From the NCBI RefSeq assembly GCF_000186245.1, contig NC_014935.1, positions 1,240,001 to 1,304,000 of the forward strand: a stretch of DNA of 64,000 nucleotides, given 5' to 3'. The DNA comes from Nitratifractor salsuginis DSM 16511 (GTDB taxonomy: Bacteria > Campylobacterota > Campylobacteria > Campylobacterales > Sulfurovaceae). The notes below the pieces were generated by a model. It ran no database searches and had not been told where the DNA came from. It worked only from the letters and a program-made list of their open reading frames with translations. Shown here one piece after another: positions 53,718-63,951 of the stretch. The position numbers and the translations under genes are program-made. Positions within the stretch are counted from its first letter, which is position 1, and every line of letters starts with the position of its first letter.

Positions 53718-56711
53718 TTATTTCATGTCTTTCAACCTTCTATACACACTCTTCATCATCATTCCTTTAACAAGTTCACCAAAATCCTTATCTTCAAGAA
53801 TCTTCTCAAATATATCCTGATTTTGATCCATTCGTTCTATGAGTTTATCTGTAAACATATCATTAAAGGCATATTTGAATGTATCCAGTTTATTGACCTT
53901 AGCCTGTTTTTGCAATGTCTCATCGGCAACGAGATCTTCTTCTATCTGTTCAAAGAAAAGTCGATCGGCTTCTTCAAATTCTGTACCAAAGCGCTCATTG
54001 AGAATCTTGATAATCTCCGAAAGTGCCTCTTTCTCATCTTTTTCTCTGTGGAGTCCTGCTTCACTAATTCCCTGTAAGACACCCTCTTCGCCCTTTTGTA
54101 ACTCCAGACGACCCTCCTTAATCTTTTCGAGACGATAATACTCCAGTGCCAATTCATCTTCAAATTGCAAACTCTCACCCAACTCTTTTTTTGGAAGTTT
54201 TTTCAGCAGGAGTTTGGCATAGGCGTAAAATTTCTCAAACTCCGCATCCCAAAAAGGCATAACCTGTGAAAAATAACTATAAAGTTTTGTCCAAGTTCTC
54301 AGAGATTTTTTGAAACTATCCTGCTGTTCCTCATCCAAAACATTAAATCTATCTACTGCGGGATCGATCAGTGCATAGAGTTTTGATTGCATTCTGGCAT
54401 TATGCTGATAAGCGGGGTCGAAATAGATATGTGCCAGTGCCTCTACTTCTGAAGGCCAATATACCTGAAAAGCATCCAACGTATTTTTGAGATCATACAG
54501 GTGGTTAGGGTCGTTGTCTTCTTCGATCGACGTGACTTCATAGTAATCTTGAAACGATTTGAGAATTGTCTCTCGATCATTGATGAAGTCAAGTACAAAG
54601 GTATCCTCTTTACCGGGTGCTATACGGTTGAGCCGTGAGAGGGTTTGTACCGCTTTGACTCCCGAGAGCTTTTTATCGATATACATTGTATGTAGCAGTG
54701 GCTGGTCGAAACCAGTCTGGTATTTATCGGCCACGATCAAGATACGGTACTCATCTTTTTTGAAAACTTCGGGGAGTTCTTTTTCACCATACCCTGTCAG
54801 TTGAGGTTCAGAAACACCATCAGGGTATGTCAAATCTTCAGGATCGATAATCTTGCCGGAAAAAGCCACAAGCACTTTTAGCTCTTGTTCGTACCCTTTT
54901 TCTTCGATATATGCTTCAAAAGCTTCAAAATAGCGTTTGGCGTGAAGCCGTGAAGAGGTAACGACCATCGCCTTGGCTTTACCGCCGATCTTGTGAGCGA
55001 CAACACTACGAAAATGTTCGATTATCACTTCTGTTTTTTGCGCGATATTATGGGGGTGCAGATCGATGAACGACCGTATCGCTTTAGCCGCCTTTTTTTT
55101 GTTGACTTTTGGATCCTCTTCGATCGCTTTTGTAATCTTGACAAAACGCTCATAAGTCGTGTAGTTTTGCAATACATCGAGGATGAATCCCTCTTCGATC
55201 GCCTGTCTCATCGAGTAGAGATGTGTCGGCCTTGGTTTGCCATCATCCCCTGTCTCTCCGAAAATCGATAGCGTCTTCTCCTTGGGTGTGGCAGTGAATG
55301 CAAAAAAGGAGAGGTTGGACTGTTTTCCTCGGGCTTTTGCAGATTTTGCCACCATGTCGTTGATACGATCTTCATCATCATATTCATCCTCTTTCGTCAC
55401 TTCATCAAGTACAGGCATCCCGAGGACTTCCTTCATCTTTTTACTCGCTTCTCCCCCCTGGGAGCTGTGAGCCTCGTCGATCAAAACGGCATAGTTTCGC
55501 CCCGGTATGTCACCGACTTTTTCAAGTATATAGGGGAATTTCTGAAGTGTCGTGATGATGATGGGGATACCTCTCGATATCGATTCGGCTAGCTGAGTGC
55601 TGTCTTTGTCGATCTTTCGCACGACGCCTGTTTTGTGTTCAAACTGATAGATGGTATCTTGTAGTTGTTTATCCAGTACCCGTCTGTCGGTGATGACGAT
55701 CACCGAGTCAAAGACACGTTCATCCTGTTCGTCATGTAGGCTGGAGAGGCGGTAGGCCAGCCAGGCGATGGTATTGCTCTTTCCCGATCCGGCAGAGTGC
55801 TGTATGAGATAGTTCTGCCCGGCTCCCTCCTTACGTGCACGGTTACGCAGGAGTCGTACAGCATCGAGTTGATGGTACCTCGGGAAGATCATCTTCTCCT
55901 TGGTATAGATGCGTCCCTCAACAGTGATCTCCTCTTTTTGCAGGTGGATAAACCTGCCAATGATCTCCAGCAGGCTATCGCGCTGTAATATCTCTTTCCA
56001 GAAATACTCCGTTTTGTATCCGTCATCGTTTGGTGGATTTCCGGCTCCGTTGTTGTAGCCTTTGTTAAAAGGGAGCCAGAAGGTTTTGTTGCCTTCGATT
56101 TTGGTGCTCATATAGACCTCTTCGTCATCGAGAGCAAAATGCACCAATGCCCGCTTTTTGAAAGCAAACAGCAACTCTTTGGGGTCACGGGTGTTTCGGT
56201 ACTGCCTTTTGGCATCGTCCGTACTCTGCCCGGTAAAATGGTTTTTGAGTTCTATGGTCAATACCGGTATGCCGTTGAGAACGATAACCAGATCGATCGA
56301 CTTTTTGTCTTTGCGGCTGAAGTAGACCTGTCTTGCAACGGCAAGTCTGTTTTGTTCATACAGGGCGATCGTCTCGGGATTAAGTCGGCTTTCCGGCGCG
56401 AAATAGGCCATACGAAATTTGACGCCATAGTCGGTAAAACCGTTGCGCAGGACATCGAGACTGCCTCGCAAGTCAAGCTCTTTGTAGAGGCGCGCCAAGA
56501 CACGTTTCTCGACATCCTCTCCGTGAATGGCAGAGATCTTCTCCCAGCGTTTAGGCTGTGTCTCACGCAAAAAGGCGATCACCTCCTCTTTGAACATTCC
56601 GATCTCAGCGCTATAGTCACTTCCTTCTATCTGCCGGTATCCACCATCTTTGCAGAGTGCATCTACGATAGCACACTCAAAGGTATTTTCAGTCGTTAAA
56701 TTGTTCATCAT
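53718..56711 (-). CDS. hsdR: type I restriction enzyme, HsdR subunit
   Basis: HsdR is the motor and nuclease of type I restriction. The 997-residue protein has the endonuclease site VLTIELKNHF near 155, preceded by the Asp of DLVIVLNG. The translocase carries Walker A HSAGSGKSNTIAWLAYRL near 302, DEAH-like LIDEAHSSQGG near 412, then SFFAFTATP and VADKYQTGFDQPLLHTMYIDK. The C-terminal helical region contacts the methylase. It overlaps the preceding gene's end by 23 bp. The nuclease and ATP motifs look intact although hsdS is broken. Confidence 0.95.
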   Translation of the reverse strand: MMNNLTTENTFECAIVDALCKDGGYRQIEGSDYSAEIGMFKEEVIAFLRETQPKRWEKISAIHGEDVEKRVLARLYKELDLRGSLDVLRNGFTDYGVKFRMAYFAPESRLNPETIALYEQNRLAVARQVYFSRKDKKSIDLVIVLNGIPVLTIELKNHFTGQSTDDAKRQYRNTRDPKELLFAFKKRALVHFALDDEEVYMSTKIEGNKTFWLPFNKGYNNGAGNPPNDDGYKTEYFWKEILQRDSLLEIIGRFIHLQKEEITVEGRIYTKEKMIFPRYHQLDAVRLLRNRARKEGAGQNYLIQHSAGSGKSNTIAWLAYRLSSLHDEQDERVFDSVIVITDRRVLDKQLQDTIYQFEHKTGVVRKIDKDSTQLAESISRGIPIIITTLQKFPYILEKVGDIPGRNYAVLIDEAHSSQGGEASKKMKEVLGMPVLDEVTKEDEYDDEDRINDMVAKSAKARGKQSNLSFFAFTATPKEKTLSIFGETGDDGKPRPTHLYSMRQAIEEGFILDVLQNYTTYERFVKITKAIEEDPKVNKKKAAKAIRSFIDLHPHNIAQKTEVIIEHFRSVVAHKIGGKAKAMVVTSSRLHAKRYFEAFEAYIEEKGYEQELKVLVAFSGKIIDPEDLTYPDGVSEPQLTGYGEKELPEVFKKDEYRILIVADKYQTGFDQPLLHTMYIDKKLSGVKAVQTLSRLNRIAPGKEDTFVLDFINDRETILKSFQDYYEVTSIEEDNDPNHLYDLKNTLDAFQVYWPSEVEALAHIYFDPAYQHNARMQSKLYALIDPAVDRFNVLDEEQQDSFKKSLRTWTKLYSYFSQVMPFWDAEFEKFYAYAKLLLKKLPKKELGESLQFEDELALEYYRLEKIKEGRLELQKGEEGVLQGISEAGLHREKDEKEALSEIIKILNERFGTEFEEADRLFFEQIEEDLVADETLQKQAKVNKLDTFKYAFNDMFTDKLIERMDQNQDIFEKILEDKDFGELVKGMMMKSVYRRLKDMK

Positions 56712-57678
56712 CTACACCATTATTTTCTTCCAAAAATTTTCGGTATAACATCTCTTCAAAAATTTGTTTGAGCATAGACTGTTCCCTTATAGAAACGCCT
56801 TCTTTTAACTTCAAGTTATCACCGATGTAACATTTCTCTATAAAAGTCATATCAAAACTATTTACCGATGAAGGTAATTCACTTAATTTTTGAGGTATTG
56901 TTTCATTGAGCACTATTCCAGTGTCTGGATCAATGTATCTTACATGAGGGTTATTTTTATATGTAACATCTTTTCCTAAAAATGTTTTTTTACCATCGAT
57001 AGATGGCCAAACTACTCCAAAAAATTCAGTTTCTCCAGGTGGATATATTTTGGCGAACTGTATTGCACCATCAATATAGTCATATTCTTCTTTCCTAATC
57101 ATTTCAACAAGCACCTTCAGCGGTTCCATGTCAAATTCTCTTGAAAATTCTCTACCCAAGTTTCTTATTTCAGTTTTCAAAAGATCTTCTGCTACTTCAA
57201 TTTCATCACCAATAAAAGCAAAAAGCTTTGTGTCCTGTGTGATCTCATCATGTCCAACAGCGTGCAGATCGTGCTTATATTCAAGTTTCCACAACCTAAA
57301 CCTATTTTGTTTCCATGACCATCCACCAAACAAAAACTCAAAATTGCCAACAGCATCATCAAATGATTGTGTTCCATAACTTGTAATAGAATTAGACAAA
57401 TCTGTAAAAAGGTTACTTAAATACTCAAGGATCTCTTCTATATCTGTACTTGGGCTTGATAAATGTTTGTCAAATTTTATAGAAGAAATTAAATTGAGAA
57501 TGAGTGTGTATGTACGTTTCGTATCACCAGCAAAGCTTATCAAACAATCTTTTCTAGGCAATTCAAATAATTTAACACCATAATGCCATCTTTCTCCTGC
57601 AGACAGGCAGCTGTCTGTAGCAAAAATCATTTCCTGATTACCATTTTCTTCTCTAAGCCACGCAACGCACAACGACAT
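56689..57678 (-). CDS. proteasome/HslV-fold-like Ntn-hydrolase candidate in the R-M operon
   Basis: This 329-residue protein begins MSLCVAWLREENGNQ. Its first 70 residues run strand-hairpin-strand with ATDSCLSAGERWHYGVKLFEL and ISFAGDTKRTY, resembling the N-terminal half of proteasome beta/HslV subunits (nucleophile, D17, K33, then a G-D-T turn). If Cys4 is the nucleophile, Asp22 and Lys38 would correspond with a 2-residue longer hairpin (inference). The C-terminal 200 residues are unrecognised. The start has GGAGGAG upstream and lies one base after the hsdS stop; its 3' end overlaps hsdR by 23 bp. Its AT-rich composition matches the locus. Confidence 0.6.
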   Translation of the reverse strand: MSLCVAWLREENGNQEMIFATDSCLSAGERWHYGVKLFELPRKDCLISFAGDTKRTYTLILNLISSIKFDKHLSSPSTDIEEILEYLSNLFTDLSNSITSYGTQSFDDAVGNFEFLFGGWSWKQNRFRLWKLEYKHDLHAVGHDEITQDTKLFAFIGDEIEVAEDLLKTEIRNLGREFSREFDMEPLKVLVEMIRKEEYDYIDGAIQFAKIYPPGETEFFGVVWPSIDGKKTFLGKDVTYKNNPHVRYIDPDTGIVLNETIPQKLSELPSSVNSFDMTFIEKCYIGDNLKLKEGVSIREQSMLKQIFEEMLYRKFLEENNGVDDEQFND

Positions 57679-58099
57679 CTCACTTCTCCTCCGCAACCTT
57701 GATCTTGCCCGTCACAACCTCACTGATCAGAGCAGCTCTATACTCTTTTTGCAGTGCGATGATCTTTTTAGTTTTTGCTATTTTTTGGTCTATTGTGGTA
57801 AGTTTTTCGTCAATAAACTTTACAATTGTATCCATCTCTTTCTGAGGAGGTAATGCAATAAAAAAATTATTTAAAACATTTATTGTCAACTGATTTACAG
57901 TGGACGTAAGAAACAATCCTGATTGGCCATTAAAAACTTGCGAATTAAAATATTTGGAAACAAACTTATAATACTTAGTTCTAAATACAGTCATAAAAGC
58001 ACCAAATGTATTTCCCACCATACTTTCATCGATTGTAATATTTTTTCCAATCAGATTTCTGCTACCATTTCTTGAACATATTAAAATATCGCCTTTTTT

Positions 58100-59148
58100 G
58101 AGTTAAAGTAAAGTTTCGTGTGGCTATTTGGGGCCATTTCCCAGATAGTCAATGATCAATTTTCTCTTGAGATCCTGACTGATACCCCTCCTGTGAACTT
58201 TGAGAAGATCTTTCAATGGAGAGAAGACTCCTCCATCGAGTGTATTAGTAGTATTGGGGATTTTGAGTTCAGGATATCTCCGGTAGGTATAAAGCCAAGG
58301 AAGATGCCTTCTGAGACTGCGATAGGCGGAACGTAACCGTTTGTGTTTGTAGTGCCAGCCCCGTTTGGAATCATCTGGAACCTTCTCATCGAAAAAGCTC
58401 TGATGTCTGCTGAGCCAAGCATCCAGAAGAAGAGTGAATCTCCTTTGAGTGACCTTTCCCAGATAGCCTCCTATTCTCTTGAGATCTATTGAGGCTTTCA
58501 TCCTTGGACTTCGAGTCAGATAACGGGTCAGAATGGCTTGTTGGTGAAAGTGGCACATTTGAACAGGGATATCTCTAAAGAGCCCAAATAATCCAGGTTT
58601 CCCATCGGTAACGACCGCTTTGATCTCATAGCCCTTTGCTTCGATGCTCTTTTGAAGCAGTAGGTACTCTTCCAGGGTTTCAGACGTGATGAAGCGGTAT
58701 GCGATCACTTCCGATCTATGGGGATCTTTTGCGACAAGTACACCGAATTTATCCTGACGTTTCCCGAAAAAGGTGGCATCTATGACCAGGACGACAGGTC
58801 GGGGATGACGTCCTCTTACAGAGGGTCCGTATTGATGGATTCTCTCTTGAATCCAGGCACGGGAATGCCCATATTCTTTGGCCAGTTCCTTGAGTGTCTT
58901 TCGGTGATAGAAATACTCTTCAAAAAGGCGGCGAGTCAATCGTCTCTGACGCCTCGAGGAAGAAAAGGTCCGACGGCATTCAAGGCAATAGTAGCGTTGT
59001 ATTCCACGGAAGTGACCGTACTTTTTTGTGTGTCTCGAATCGCAATAGGGACACTTTTTTACAAGCCATCTGTAAAAAAGTCCTTTTTAAACCCCATATT
59101 ACCGAAGTTCTTAAAGGTTTTTAGACACACGTTTCTTTACTTTAGGTC
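58100..59148 (-). mobile_element. IS256-like element, copy D (diverged sister)
   Basis: 1049 bp with inverted repeats GAGTTAAAGTAAAG / CTTTACTTTAGGTC, related to but distinct from the ends of copies A-C. Flanked by the perfect 8-bp duplication CCTTTTTT (58092-58099 and 59149-59156). It interrupts hsdS between its second recognition domain start and DILICSRN. Confidence 0.9.
58124..59069 (-). CDS. IS256-family transposase, zinc-binding variant, copy D
   Basis: This sister of the copy A transposase clearly differs at many residues. The apparent ATG at 59069 reads MACKK, then the A6 run at 59060-59055 must be slipped to enter the conserved frame KCPYCDSRHTKKYG...CLEC. The catalytic motifs VIDATFFGKRQ, VVTDGKPGLFGLF, MCHFHQQAI and TTNTLDGG follow. 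The longest ATG-initiated frame, MTRRLFEEYFY, lacks the zinc ribbon. The out-of-frame arrangement is kept despite the divergence from copies A-C. Confidence 0.85.
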
Positions 59149-59819
59149 CCTTTTTTCAATAATAATTTTTCTGGAATACTTGTTTCTACATAAACACAAT
59201 CTTTAAGACTCAATTTATTATTTTGTATATTTGATGATCTTAATACCAATTTCCCAGATTTATCATATACAATTTCTTCAGGTTTATATGTTAAATCAAT
59301 AATTGCTTCACCAATAAATTTTAATCGCTTCACATCCCAATGCTCCGGTATCTCCCCAAGCCATGGAATACCGCTCTTTTTCATCGGAACATCGGGGTCG
59401 ATTCCTTTGGTGACGGCATAGTTAATGACGGCACGCTTCTCCTCTTCATAGAGATCAAGCAAACGCTCTTTCTGGGCGATCAGCGTATCGATCTCTACTG
59501 TTTTCCGATCAAGAAATTTTGCGATGGTTTGTTGTTCTTTAATATCTGTTGGAATTGCAATATTTTCATTAAGATAACTTCCTATATCAAGATTTTGAAT
59601 TCCAGTTGTCTGTTTGATAGATCTAGTATTAACCCTAAAAGAATACAAGGCTGTGAAATAATACAGGAGAAACCTATTGTCGATCATTTTTTTATTGGTG
59701 AATAGTTTTCCTATAAAATTAGAATAAACTGCTCTTTCATCCAAATCATTTTGTATAACACGACCGACAGTTTGTTTCTCGCCTCCTCCTGATTTCTCGA
59801 TAAGAAGATCACCAAAGTT

Positions 59820-60865
59820 GAGCTAAAGCGGCTTTTCGGGTTGCTAAAAACCTTTCAGAACTTCGGTAATATGGGCTTTAAAAAGGACTTTTTTACAGAT
59901 GGCTTGTAAAAAAGTGCCCTGTATGCGGTTCCCGGCAGACGAAAAAGAATGGGAAAAGAGCTGGAATTCAGCGCTATTTATGTCTAAACTGTCGGCATAG
60001 TTTTTCTTCAAGTAGACGTCCCTCCAGAATACAGAAACAACTCTTTAATGCCTACTTCTATGAACACCAAACGCGCAAAGCCTTATCTCGGACCTATCAT
60101 AGAGATCGGGTGTGGATTCAACGTCAGATTCATAGCTATGAACCACGAAAGAGCTTAGCTCGTCCCAGACCGATCACGCTGGTTATCGATGCGACATTTT
60201 TCGGAAAACGGGTCAAAGGCTTTGGTGTACTTGTGGCCAAGGATGTCCTGAGTGGCCAACCGGTAGCGTATCGTTTCATTCAAACTGAAACGCTTTTTGA
60301 ATATGCAATGATCCGGCAAAACCTTCTCGATCAGGGCTTTGTGATTCAGGCAGTGACCGTCGATGGGCGACGGGGATTATTTGGGCTCTTTGCCGACCTT
60401 CCGGTTCAAATGTGCCATTTCCATCAACAGGCGATATTGACCCGTTATCTAACACGCAAACCTACCTATCAAGCCTCCAAGGATCTCAAATGTATCGCCT
60501 CCTATCTTGGCCAGACAACTCTCTGCCGTTTTCGCTATATGCTGGAAGCCTGGCTTCTACGACACAGGAAATTCTATGAAGAGAAAACCCCGGATGATTC
60601 TCCACGTGGATGGCATTACACCCATGATCGACTCCGCTCGGCCTATCGAAGTCTTGAACGCAATCTTCCTTATCTCTTCACCTACAAAACCCACCCTAAT
60701 CTTGACATCGCCAATACGACCAATGCACTCGATGGTGGACTTTTCTCACCGCTGAAATCCTTATTGAAAATCCATCGGGGTATTGGAGACTCTATGAAGA
60801 AGAAACTCATCACTGATTTCCTAGAAAAAGCAATGAAATAGCAACCCGAAAACCCGCTTTAAGTC
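59820..60865 (+). mobile_element. IS256-like element, copy C
   Basis: 1046 bp with GAGCTAAAGCGG/CCGCTTTAAGTC ends, flanked by the perfect 8-bp duplication CCAAAGTT (59812-59819 and 60866-60873). It interrupts hsdS in the first recognition domain. It differs at many bases from copies A and B, so it is not a recent copy of them. Confidence 0.93.
59899..60841 (+). CDS. IS256-family transposase, zinc-binding variant, copy C (needs a frameshift)
   Basis: The ATG at 59899 reads MACKK and then the A6 run at 59908-59913; slipping one base gives MACKKCPVCGSRQTKKNGKR and an uninterrupted frame to 60841. Residues CLNCRHSFSS complete the zinc ribbon, and VIDATFFGKRV, VDGRRGLFGLF, MCHFHQQAI and TTNALDGG follow. 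The frame without slippage ends soon after the ribbon; the ORF beginning at 60110 is only the C-terminal part. Confidence 0.83.
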
Positions 60866-61136
60866 CCAAAGTTCAATACCTTGGAATGAAGTTGGTTGTC
60901 ATCTATATTTCTTATAGTTAAATTGCTTTTGTCGACACCTAAACTCTCCATATCAAAATCTGCAACACGTATACAAATGACATCATTTTCATCATTTTGA
61001 GCTTCAGAACCCCAAACGCCATTACTTGTTTTAGGTATCAGGGTTTTTAATCTATAAATCACCCAATGCTCCGGTATCTCCCCAAGCCATGGAATGCCGC
61101 TCTCTTTGTAATGATTGTACCGAGTCATAGCACTCA

Positions 61137-62042
61137 TCACATCTTCTCCTCTTTGCTCTCTACCCACAACGTACGCGCTTTCCAGTCCTCTGGAAAGCCC
61201 ATATTGTAAAGCGGAACATCAGGATAGGCAGCAAGCAGTCGCATCAGCTCACCGCGAAAATCATACTCATCTCCATCGATCGCCTCAAGCAGATAGCGGA
61301 TCATACTCAGAACAAAAAAGATTTTGCGGTTGTTCAGTCCGCTAAAAGCAGGGTTCCCGCGAGGAACCATAGGGCGAATCGCCAAGAGTTTGTTCCAGGT
61401 ACGGGCATGATGGGCACAGAGGTTGCGCACATAGGTCAGCGAATGCAGCCATCCCGCCAGGACTTTGGCATTCAGATTCACCGAATCAGCGATTTTTTGT
61501 TGTACCGGGGCTCTGAGATTGCCATAAAGCCGAGAAAGCGTACTAAAAGAGATCACCTCCACCATCATCCACACCGGCAGATAATCTCCATCATATTTCG
61601 AGAAAAAATGGGTGACAAAAACCTCTTTTGAGCGATCCACATCCCGTCGTATCGCCTCCAAGATCGAAGCGTGTTTTTCCAAATCGTGCATTTTGGCGCT
61701 CTTGGTATAGCCAAAGGCTCCCAGAGTAGGTTCCATCGCTGTGTGATAGGCATACGTCGTACGGAAATAGACTTCAAGCTTTTCCATCGCATAAAAGATA
61801 AGATTGCGAAGCTTTTTATCAAAATAGTAGAGGCGTATCACCTGTTCAAAAGTCGTTCCCTCTCTGAAGCAGTGCGATGCATCATCCTGAAAAAAGCGCA
61901 TATAGGCACTGAGACGGTAATAATTGATTTGGGCGAGCTTTAATTCAGCGTAAGCAGAATTGGGAACGATCAGCCCTCTCTCTTGGAGCAGGTGAACTTG
62001 TTCTGAAAAAGTTAATGGGGATTTCGTATAGGAAAGCTTCAT
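61137..62042 (-). CDS. Abi_2 (AbiD/AbiF-like) family protein
   Basis: This 301-residue protein of the Abi_2 family opens SPLTFSEQVHLLQERGLIV, followed by INYYRLSAYMRFF and YYFDKKLRNLIFYAMEKLEVYFRT, the typical family blocks. A HEPN-like Rx4-6H motif occurs in YVRNLCAHHARTWN near 209. Some members abort phage infection by RNase activity. It lies between hsdM and hsdS; its TGA overlaps the hsdS ATG by one base, so it is coupled to the R-M operon. Activity is inferred from the family only. Confidence 0.85.
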   Translation of the reverse strand: MKLSYTKSPLTFSEQVHLLQERGLIVPNSAYAELKLAQINYYRLSAYMRFFQDDASHCFREGTTFEQVIRLYYFDKKLRNLIFYAMEKLEVYFRTTYAYHTAMEPTLGAFGYTKSAKMHDLEKHASILEAIRRDVDRSKEVFVTHFFSKYDGDYLPVWMMVEVISFSTLSRLYGNLRAPVQQKIADSVNLNAKVLAGWLHSLTYVRNLCAHHARTWNKLLAIRPMVPRGNPAFSGLNNRKIFFVLSMIRYLLEAIDGDEYDFRGELMRLLAAYPDVPLYNMGFPEDWKARTLWVESKEEKM

Positions 62043-62151: not shown

Positions 62152-63951
62152 TCATTGAAGCACCTGTCTCTCTAGTTCTCGACTACTCTCCTCCAGTGCC
62201 AAAATATCAGCCCTGATAGCATCGAGTGAGCGTAAGGGTTTGAACTCGTAGAAATATTTGTCGAAGTTGATCTCATAGCCTATTTTTGTTTTGCTCTCAT
62301 CGATCCATGCATCGGGCACATGAGGAAGCACTTCTCTTTCGAAATACTCCTCAATGCTCTGAGGCACCAAGTTCCCCTCTTCATCCTCGCGCAAAAAGGG
62401 GATGTTTTCTGTATCTCGCAGCTCTTTGTCGGGCTTGGGTCTGCCCTTGGTATCTGTGACGATATTACCGGCTTCATCTCGCAAGGGTCGCTCTACCGTC
62501 ACGCGCCAATACCCGAAATAGTCATTGGGGAAGATCTTGACAAACTCTCCTTCCTCAAACTCACCGTAGAGCTTCGTGATGTAGTTGATCCCCCGTTCAT
62601 CATCATTAGTCGGGATCCGCTTTCGCTTGTCTCCCAAACTGCGAGGCATCTTCTCCCAAAAGCGGTTGAAGTCTCTTTTGCCCTCTTCCATCAGTGCTTC
62701 ATCTTTGCTGCCTGTGGCGTTGATGAGTTGGATCTTTCCTCGGCACTTTGCATCTTTTTGGTTGTTTAGCACCCAGATGTAGGTTGCAATGCCGGTATTG
62801 TAAAAGAGCTGATCTGGCAATGCCACGATCGCTTCGAGCCAGTCATTCTCGATAATCCATCGGCGGATGTTACTCTCTCCGCTTCCCGCCTGACCGGTAA
62901 AGAGCGGCGAACCGTTAAAAACGATGCCTATACGGCTGCCTTCAGGCTTCATCTTGGAGATCATATGTTGTAAAAAGAGCAATGAACCGTCGTTGATCCT
63001 CGGCAGCCCGGCCCCAAAGCGACCGGCAAAGCCCAAATTTTCATACTCGGCTTTAATCGTCTTGGCTGCCTTTTTCCACTCAACCCCAAAAGGAGGATTG
63101 GAAAGCATATAATCAAACTTCTCGTCTCTGAGACCATCGACGGTAAAAGTGTTTCCAAATTTGATATTGGATGGATTCTCCCCCTTGATCAACGTATCAG
63201 ATTTGCAGATGGCATAAGACTCCGGATTGATCTCCTGCCCGAACAACTCCAACTTGGCATCGGGATTGAGCCTTTTGATGTGATTCTCCCCGATAGAAAG
63301 CATCCCGCCCGTTCCGCACGCAGGGTCGTAAAGTGTCTTGACGATACCCTCTTTGAATATCTCCCGATCACTGTTGAAAAGTAGATTGACCATCAGTTCA
63401 ATCACTTCTCTGGGTGTGAAGTGTTCACCGGCTGTCTCGTTGCTTTGCTCGGCGAATTTACGAATCAACTCCTCAAAAATATACCCCATCTGCATACTGT
63501 CCACATCGTCAAAAGGCATCTCGGCAAAGGCTTTGACCACCTGATAGAGTAGATCTGATTTTGGGTCATCCATCCGATCGATCTGATCGTCAAAATTGAA
63601 ATACTCGATGATCTCTCGAGCATTGGAAGAAAATCCATTGATATAATTACGCAGATTCATCGCTACATTATTGGGGTCAGCGACAATTTTCGCAAAGTCA
63701 AAACGGCTTCGATTGTGAAAGTTGTAGCCTGCAATCTTGTTGAGATAGAGATCTTTGGCATTCTCAGACATTTTCTCTACACGGGGCAATGCGGCAAGTA
63801 CCTTTTCTTTCGTAGGTGCCAGTACTGCATCGAGACGCCGCAGCACCGTCAGAGGCAGAATCACTTTACCATAGTCGGAACGTTTATAATCACCACGCAA
63901 CAACCCGGCAATATCCCAGATCAGGTCAGCTTTTTGTTTGAAATTCGTCAT
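62152..63951 (-). CDS. hsdM: type I restriction enzyme, HsdM methyltransferase subunit
   Basis: HsdM methylates adenine in the target set by HsdS. The 599-residue protein has the N-terminal helical domain (KADLIWDIAGLLRGDYKRSDYG), then AdoMet motif I DPACGTGGML near 213, and the catalytic NPPFGVEW near 285. It also has the GEHFTPREVIELM block typical of type I M subunits, and a C-terminal linker helix. It is the first gene of the minus-strand R-M operon at the window edge. No ribosome site is obvious upstream. Confidence 0.95.
   Translation of the reverse strand: MTNFKQKADLIWDIAGLLRGDYKRSDYGKVILPLTVLRRLDAVLAPTKEKVLAALPRVEKMSENAKDLYLNKIAGYNFHNRSRFDFAKIVADPNNVAMNLRNYINGFSSNAREIIEYFNFDDQIDRMDDPKSDLLYQVVKAFAEMPFDDVDSMQMGYIFEELIRKFAEQSNETAGEHFTPREVIELMVNLLFNSDREIFKEGIVKTLYDPACGTGGMLSIGENHIKRLNPDAKLELFGQEINPESYAICKSDTLIKGENPSNIKFGNTFTVDGLRDEKFDYMLSNPPFGVEWKKAAKTIKAEYENLGFAGRFGAGLPRINDGSLLFLQHMISKMKPEGSRIGIVFNGSPLFTGQAGSGESNIRRWIIENDWLEAIVALPDQLFYNTGIATYIWVLNNQKDAKCRGKIQLINATGSKDEALMEEGKRDFNRFWEKMPRSLGDKRKRIPTNDDERGINYITKLYGEFEEGEFVKIFPNDYFGYWRVTVERPLRDEAGNIVTDTKGRPKPDKELRDTENIPFLREDEEGNLVPQSIEEYFEREVLPHVPDAWIDESKTKIGYEINFDKYFYEFKPLRSLDAIRADILALEESSRELERQVLQ

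Follow-up and report, generated by a model that had tools for sequence, protein, structure and literature searches.

A predicted proteasome-like peptidase gene carried between hsdS and hsdR in type I restriction-modification operons

A 329-codon gene in the type I restriction-modification (R-M) operon of Nitratifractor salsuginis DSM 16511 very likely encodes a protein of the proteasome fold, and genes of its kind lie directly ahead of hsdR in R-M operons of two distant groups of bacteria. The superfamily is already known; the link to R-M is the new part. The reading that fits the evidence best, to which we assign a probability of roughly 45%, is that the gene is a protease cassette backing up or serving the R-M system. 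In the window (the whole 64,000-nucleotide stretch of DNA that was analysed), hsdM, hsdS and hsdR of a type I R-M system form one operon, in which hsdS is broken, as follows:

53718-56711, minus strand: hsdR, intact, overlapping the proteasome-like gene by 23 bp
56689-57678, minus strand: gene for the proteasome-like (Ntn hydrolase) protein of 329 amino acids; ATG start, 329 codons, without internal stop
57680-58021, minus strand: 3′ fragment of hsdS
58104-59144: IS copy A in hsdS (terminal inverted repeats 58104-58126 and 59122-59144; transposase ORF 58124-58939, minus strand)
59142-59744, minus strand: middle fragment of hsdS
59824-60861: IS copy B in hsdS (terminal inverted repeats 59824-59846 and 60839-60861; transposase ORF 60110-60841, plus strand)
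60859-61167, minus strand: 5′ fragment of hsdS
61137-62042, minus strand: AbiD/Abi_2 gene between hsdM and hsdS
62152-63951, minus strand: hsdM, intact

The 5′ end of the proteasome-like gene lies one base past the hsdS stop (57680), and 23 bp are common to this gene and the start of hsdR (56711). The open reading frame, the one-base spacing, the overlap and the quoted peptides are all as an earlier sequence-only reading had described them. The AbiD/Abi_2 gene is a second accessory gene of the same R-M operon.

Regarding the fold, single-sequence searches were empty, so the proteasome signal is visible only with family profiles. The window protein alone gave no useful match in Pfam, NCBIfam, PADLOC, PHROGs or PDB, and PADLOC models gave no match to it at E up to 10. 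A nine-member profile searched against 177,635 PDB sequences returned HslV (4hnz) as the top match (E=0.041), and HslV was the sole PDB match of a fifteen-member profile (E=0.033). The Pfam model PF00227 (Proteasome) matched two relatives (L008 and L020) below threshold over approximately residues 16-83, the best at 15.4 bits (E=0.015); no member reached its gathering cut-off of 22.4 bits, and the window protein was unmatched. Local hhalign to the HslV encoded in the same genome paired Asp22 with Asp17, Lys36 with Lys33 and FAGDT with FAGST; a global hhalign matched the wrong termini and was discarded. AlphaFold predictions for two members, built from three and four input sequences, have low confidence (mean pLDDT of 55 and 46). 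Both low-confidence models contain the proteasome core order S1 S2 S3 S4 H1 H2 S5 S6 S7 H3 H4 S8 S9, and they gave best Foldseek E values of 1.9e-6 and 9.8e-6 and a VIA-align Z of about 10, with solely proteasome and Anbu chains among the matches listed by the two programs for either model. Model residue 2 was aligned to chain residue 1 in many rows (Anbu and several proteasome chains), as judged from the range starts only. Individually these lines are inconclusive, but jointly they make the fold very likely, and the resemblance of the N-terminus to proteasome beta subunits and HslV, on which the sequence-only reading was built, extends to the family profile, whose top PDB match is HslV, and to structure predictions that match proteasome and Anbu chains, albeit with low-confidence models, rather than an unrelated fold. 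A chance resemblance was ruled out by the same motifs in distant relatives from other phyla together with the fold searches.

A cyanobacterial relative is 60% identical to the window protein and one from another genome of its taxonomic order 42% identical, and copies at approximately 26-34% identity occur on plasmids and chromosomes of Klebsiella, Agrobacterium, Rhizobium, Lactiplantibacillus, Rhodococcus and E. coli. Two prophage-like viral contigs also carry relatives; most scans of viral contigs were empty, and tblastn of phage records with the proteasome-like protein gave no match. The family is rare, being found in 3 of 399 genomes of the window's order, and its distribution is under-sampled because the profile was run on two genome groups. 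One match at 5.7e-4 (L004, genome G386) was false, as it sits in a trigger-factor-like gene. Alignment of 14 members revealed nine invariant residues besides a constant hydroxyl residue at position 2 (Thr in 11, Ser in 3), namely Asp22, Ser23, Gly28, Lys36, Gly51, Thr53, Tyr57, Trp122 and Asp158. The positions of functional interest in the window are:

57673-57675, minus strand: Ser2 codon, predicted to be the nucleophile as residue 1 once Met is lost; Thr or Ser in 14/14
57613-57615, minus strand: Asp22 codon, Asp17 equivalent; 14/14, paired with HslV Asp17 by hhalign
57571-57573, minus strand: Lys36 codon, Lys33 equivalent; 14/14, paired with HslV Lys33
57526-57528, minus strand: Gly51 codon in the FAGxT motif, equivalent of the oxyanion-hole glycine; 14/14, FAGST in HslV
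56692-56865, minus strand: C-terminal tail, about residues 272-329; R-M-linked clade only

The catalytic triad proposed earlier (Cys4, Asp22 and Lys38) needs revision at two points. Its Asp22 and Cys4 were numbered correctly, whereas the lysine of GVKLFEL is Lys36 counted from Met1, not Lys38; with that correction, the acidic and basic members are both invariant and aligned with those of HslV. Cys4 as the nucleophile is ruled out, as this cysteine is confined to the six R-M-linked members (6/14) and variable outside that clade, versus Thr or Ser at position 2 in 14/14. Because the invariant Thr/Ser2, a residue type that suits the excision of Met1, would become residue 1 on the predicted loss of Met, residue 1 is the expected catalytic residue, and the conserved positions and the models together suggest that the protein is likely an active Ser/Thr-1 enzyme. 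Two paralogs in one genome (L017 1108-1953 and L018 1099-1947) show the same kind of signature (MTT start, DTxIS, GAKxFPL and YAGxS) but belong to a more distant family, which is probably a separate proteasome-like one.

Among characterized proteins, HslV is the best sequence match and has in common with this protein the predicted fold, Asp17, Lys33 and FAGxT, as well as a residue-1 Thr/Ser nucleophile, which is predicted here. It differs in length (178 aa versus 329 aa here) and shows 24% identity over 46 columns; furthermore, there is no adjacent hslU at the R-M locus, whereas the genome's separate HslV is encoded at 1508922-1509440 beside HslU. Anbu and the 20S proteasome beta subunits are the best structural matches of the low-confidence models, but identity is 10-15%, their operon context is different, and the C-terminal tail has no known counterpart in them. 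Fuchs, Alva and Lupas (2021) described 22 prokaryotic proteasome-like subfamilies, of which AAH, CPH, PPH, RPC and DPH constitute group I (PMC8665760). The present family resembles those subfamilies in the absence of a propeptide, in its bacterial and phage distribution and in its conserved triad (PMC8665760), and it may correspond to AAH or CPH, which would be plausible by taxonomy.

The order hsdM, hsdS, none to two further genes, the proteasome-like gene and hsdR was found in six operons, three of them in the window's taxonomic order (the window, L026 and L032) and three on the cyanobacterial side (L001, L027 and L028). The tie to type I R-M, which the earlier reading could propose from one locus, thus recurs in unrelated genomes in two distant groups. 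Its expectation that homologues would adjoin R-M genes in unrelated genomes holds for these operons, but many other homologues do not adjoin such genes. Across the six operons, identities are 57-86% for HsdR, 61-88% for HsdM and 38-77% for the proteasome-like protein, and the R-M-linked genes occur with this one HsdR subfamily only; among the more distant HsdR relatives inspected, at about 40-51% identity, the gene is absent. The six R-M-linked members form one clade (branch support 89/99) and have in common a private C-terminal tail, which follows residue 272 or thereabouts and occurs in all six but in none of the eight other members. The cyanobacterial pair L001/L027 is under purifying selection (Ka/Ks 0.11). 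A further locus (L029) contains a decayed copy of the arrangement. In L032 (2020-3314, genome G377), two more small genes lie between hsdS and the proteasome-like gene, one of which has a weak DUF1828 match.

The interval between hsdS and hsdR is a known cassette slot. In E. coli, a DarTG2 cassette resides there, and the interval is a hotspot (PMC12255303). In the inspected HsdR relatives at about 40-51% identity, the slot is either empty (L054, L056, L057 and L060) or occupied by other genes, among them an AAA ATPase and a PtuB-type HNH nuclease in Ketogulonicigenium (L055). The DarTG2 and PtuB-type cassettes occupy the same type I operon slot as the window gene; they are known defence systems directed at DNA, whereas the window gene encodes a predicted peptidase. 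This gene also seems to travel between R-M operons apart from hsdR and hsdM. In the HsdR and HsdM trees, the window groups with L026 of its own order (support 100/100 and 95/96), whereas the tree of the proteasome-like protein places it beside L001 and L027 from the cyanobacterial side (98/98); for this protein, the alternative topology was rejected (AU p=1.5e-4). This conflict suggests movement that is independent of hsdR and hsdM.

Outside R-M operons, one relative adjoins GajA/GajB (L012), another Gabija-like genes (L011) and a third LeoA/LeoBC genes (L005), and other standalone relatives are located on plasmids, near integrases or among non-defence genes. The defence-gene neighbours of standalone relatives are anecdotal. 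On the two viral contigs (L020 8001-8840 and L016 76-885), the relatives lie within a prophage tail module, that of L020 being placed ahead of the tail genes. Some standalone copies are damaged. The E. coli copy (L010 8001-8717; L021 15001-15576) is shortened by an in-frame stop, with 191 aa annotated, and among 5426 complete genomes of that species, 126 carry near-identical DNA; a Klebsiella plasmid copy (L007 7851-8829) has ISKpn26 at its start and a frameshift.

Under the favoured reading, the gene would be a protease cassette that uses the hsdS-hsdR slot and overlaps hsdR, and its product would be an N-terminal-nucleophile hydrolase of the proteasome-beta/HslV type, without a propeptide. 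Met1 would be cut off by methionine aminopeptidase; the exposed Ser2 (Thr in most relatives) would then serve as nucleophile with the help of Asp22 and Lys36, and conservation and alignment predict an oxyanion hole at Gly51. The R-M-specific C-terminal tail may dock the peptidase on the restriction complex. Engaged or blocked restriction may then unleash the peptidase, which would form a second line of defence by cutting proteins of the phage or the host. Two points favour such an accessory protein-cleaving arm: autonomous defence cassettes use the slot, and relatives adjoin other defence systems. The rarity of the family, the low confidence of the models, the disrupted hsdS in this genome and the lack of a neighbouring unfoldase gene, which would make folded substrates difficult to degrade, count against a protease cassette, and the prophage-tail and non-defence relatives may indicate that the basic activity is non-defensive.

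The main rival is built-in restriction alleviation, in which a dedicated protease would cleave or destabilise HsdR on the unmodified host chromosome and thereby replace ClpXP. HsdR proteolysis by ClpXP is established for types IA and IB, and type IC uses another mechanism (PMC3874165, PMC12707154). This precedent, the overlap with hsdR and an R-M-linked clade with its own tail are consistent with such a role; on the other hand, standalone relatives have no HsdR neighbour, HsdR relatives at 40-51% identity manage without the gene, and the conflict between the cassette and HsdR trees (AU p=1.5e-4) is unexpected for an HsdR-specific protease. Moreover, no unfoldase gene lies nearby. Overall, alleviation appears rather unlikely. 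The lack of an unfoldase would suit counter-counter-defence, in which anti-restriction proteins made by phages, or other phage proteins that are small and unfolded, would be degraded, as a proteasome-like protein working alone should prefer substrates that are small or unstructured; an action on unstructured proteins that needs no ATP has been discussed for proteasome-like homologs (PMC8665760). The location in an R-M operon agrees with this proposal, but its substrates are hypothetical and the standalone members lack, at their own loci, an R-M system that they could protect, which leaves it distinctly improbable. A hitch-hiking phage or plasmid gene, retained by its position in a recombination hotspot and without a functional tie to R-M, would explain why relatives occur in a prophage tail module, on plasmids and beside integrases, but is the least probable explanation given the six-member R-M clade, its private tail, the purifying selection and the restriction to a single HsdR subfamily (57-86% identity).

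Searches of open-access papers found no report that ties a proteasome-like protein to R-M or to phage defence, which is not proof of absence. The R-M link is regarded as new since Fuchs et al. (2021) reported no informative genomic context that would hint at function (PMC8665760). A recurrent, clade-specific place in R-M operons supplies one family with a context of this kind and opens its function to direct testing, and it adds a predicted protease to the cassettes known from the hsdS-hsdR slot. Recurrence of the arrangement in cyanobacteria suggests that some restriction systems work with a protein-cutting enzyme of their own. A tentative proposal, which we would put below even odds, is that the state of the restriction complex switches a proteasome-like protease belonging to the type I system itself, which would serve either to control HsdR by proteolysis or as a protein-cleaving arm triggered by engaged or inhibited DNA restriction. 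If this is true, the protease would be, to our knowledge, the first member of the proteasome family to have a defined role in prokaryotic immunity.

The hsdS gene of the window is in three pieces, interrupted by IS copies A and B, whose terminal inverted repeats measure 23 nt. The two copies are related and oppositely oriented, and an 8-bp direct repeat apparently flanks each of them (AAAAAAGG and AACTTTGG, minus strand). For its zinc-ribbon N-terminus to be included, each IS transposase apparently requires frameshifting at an AAAAAAG run.
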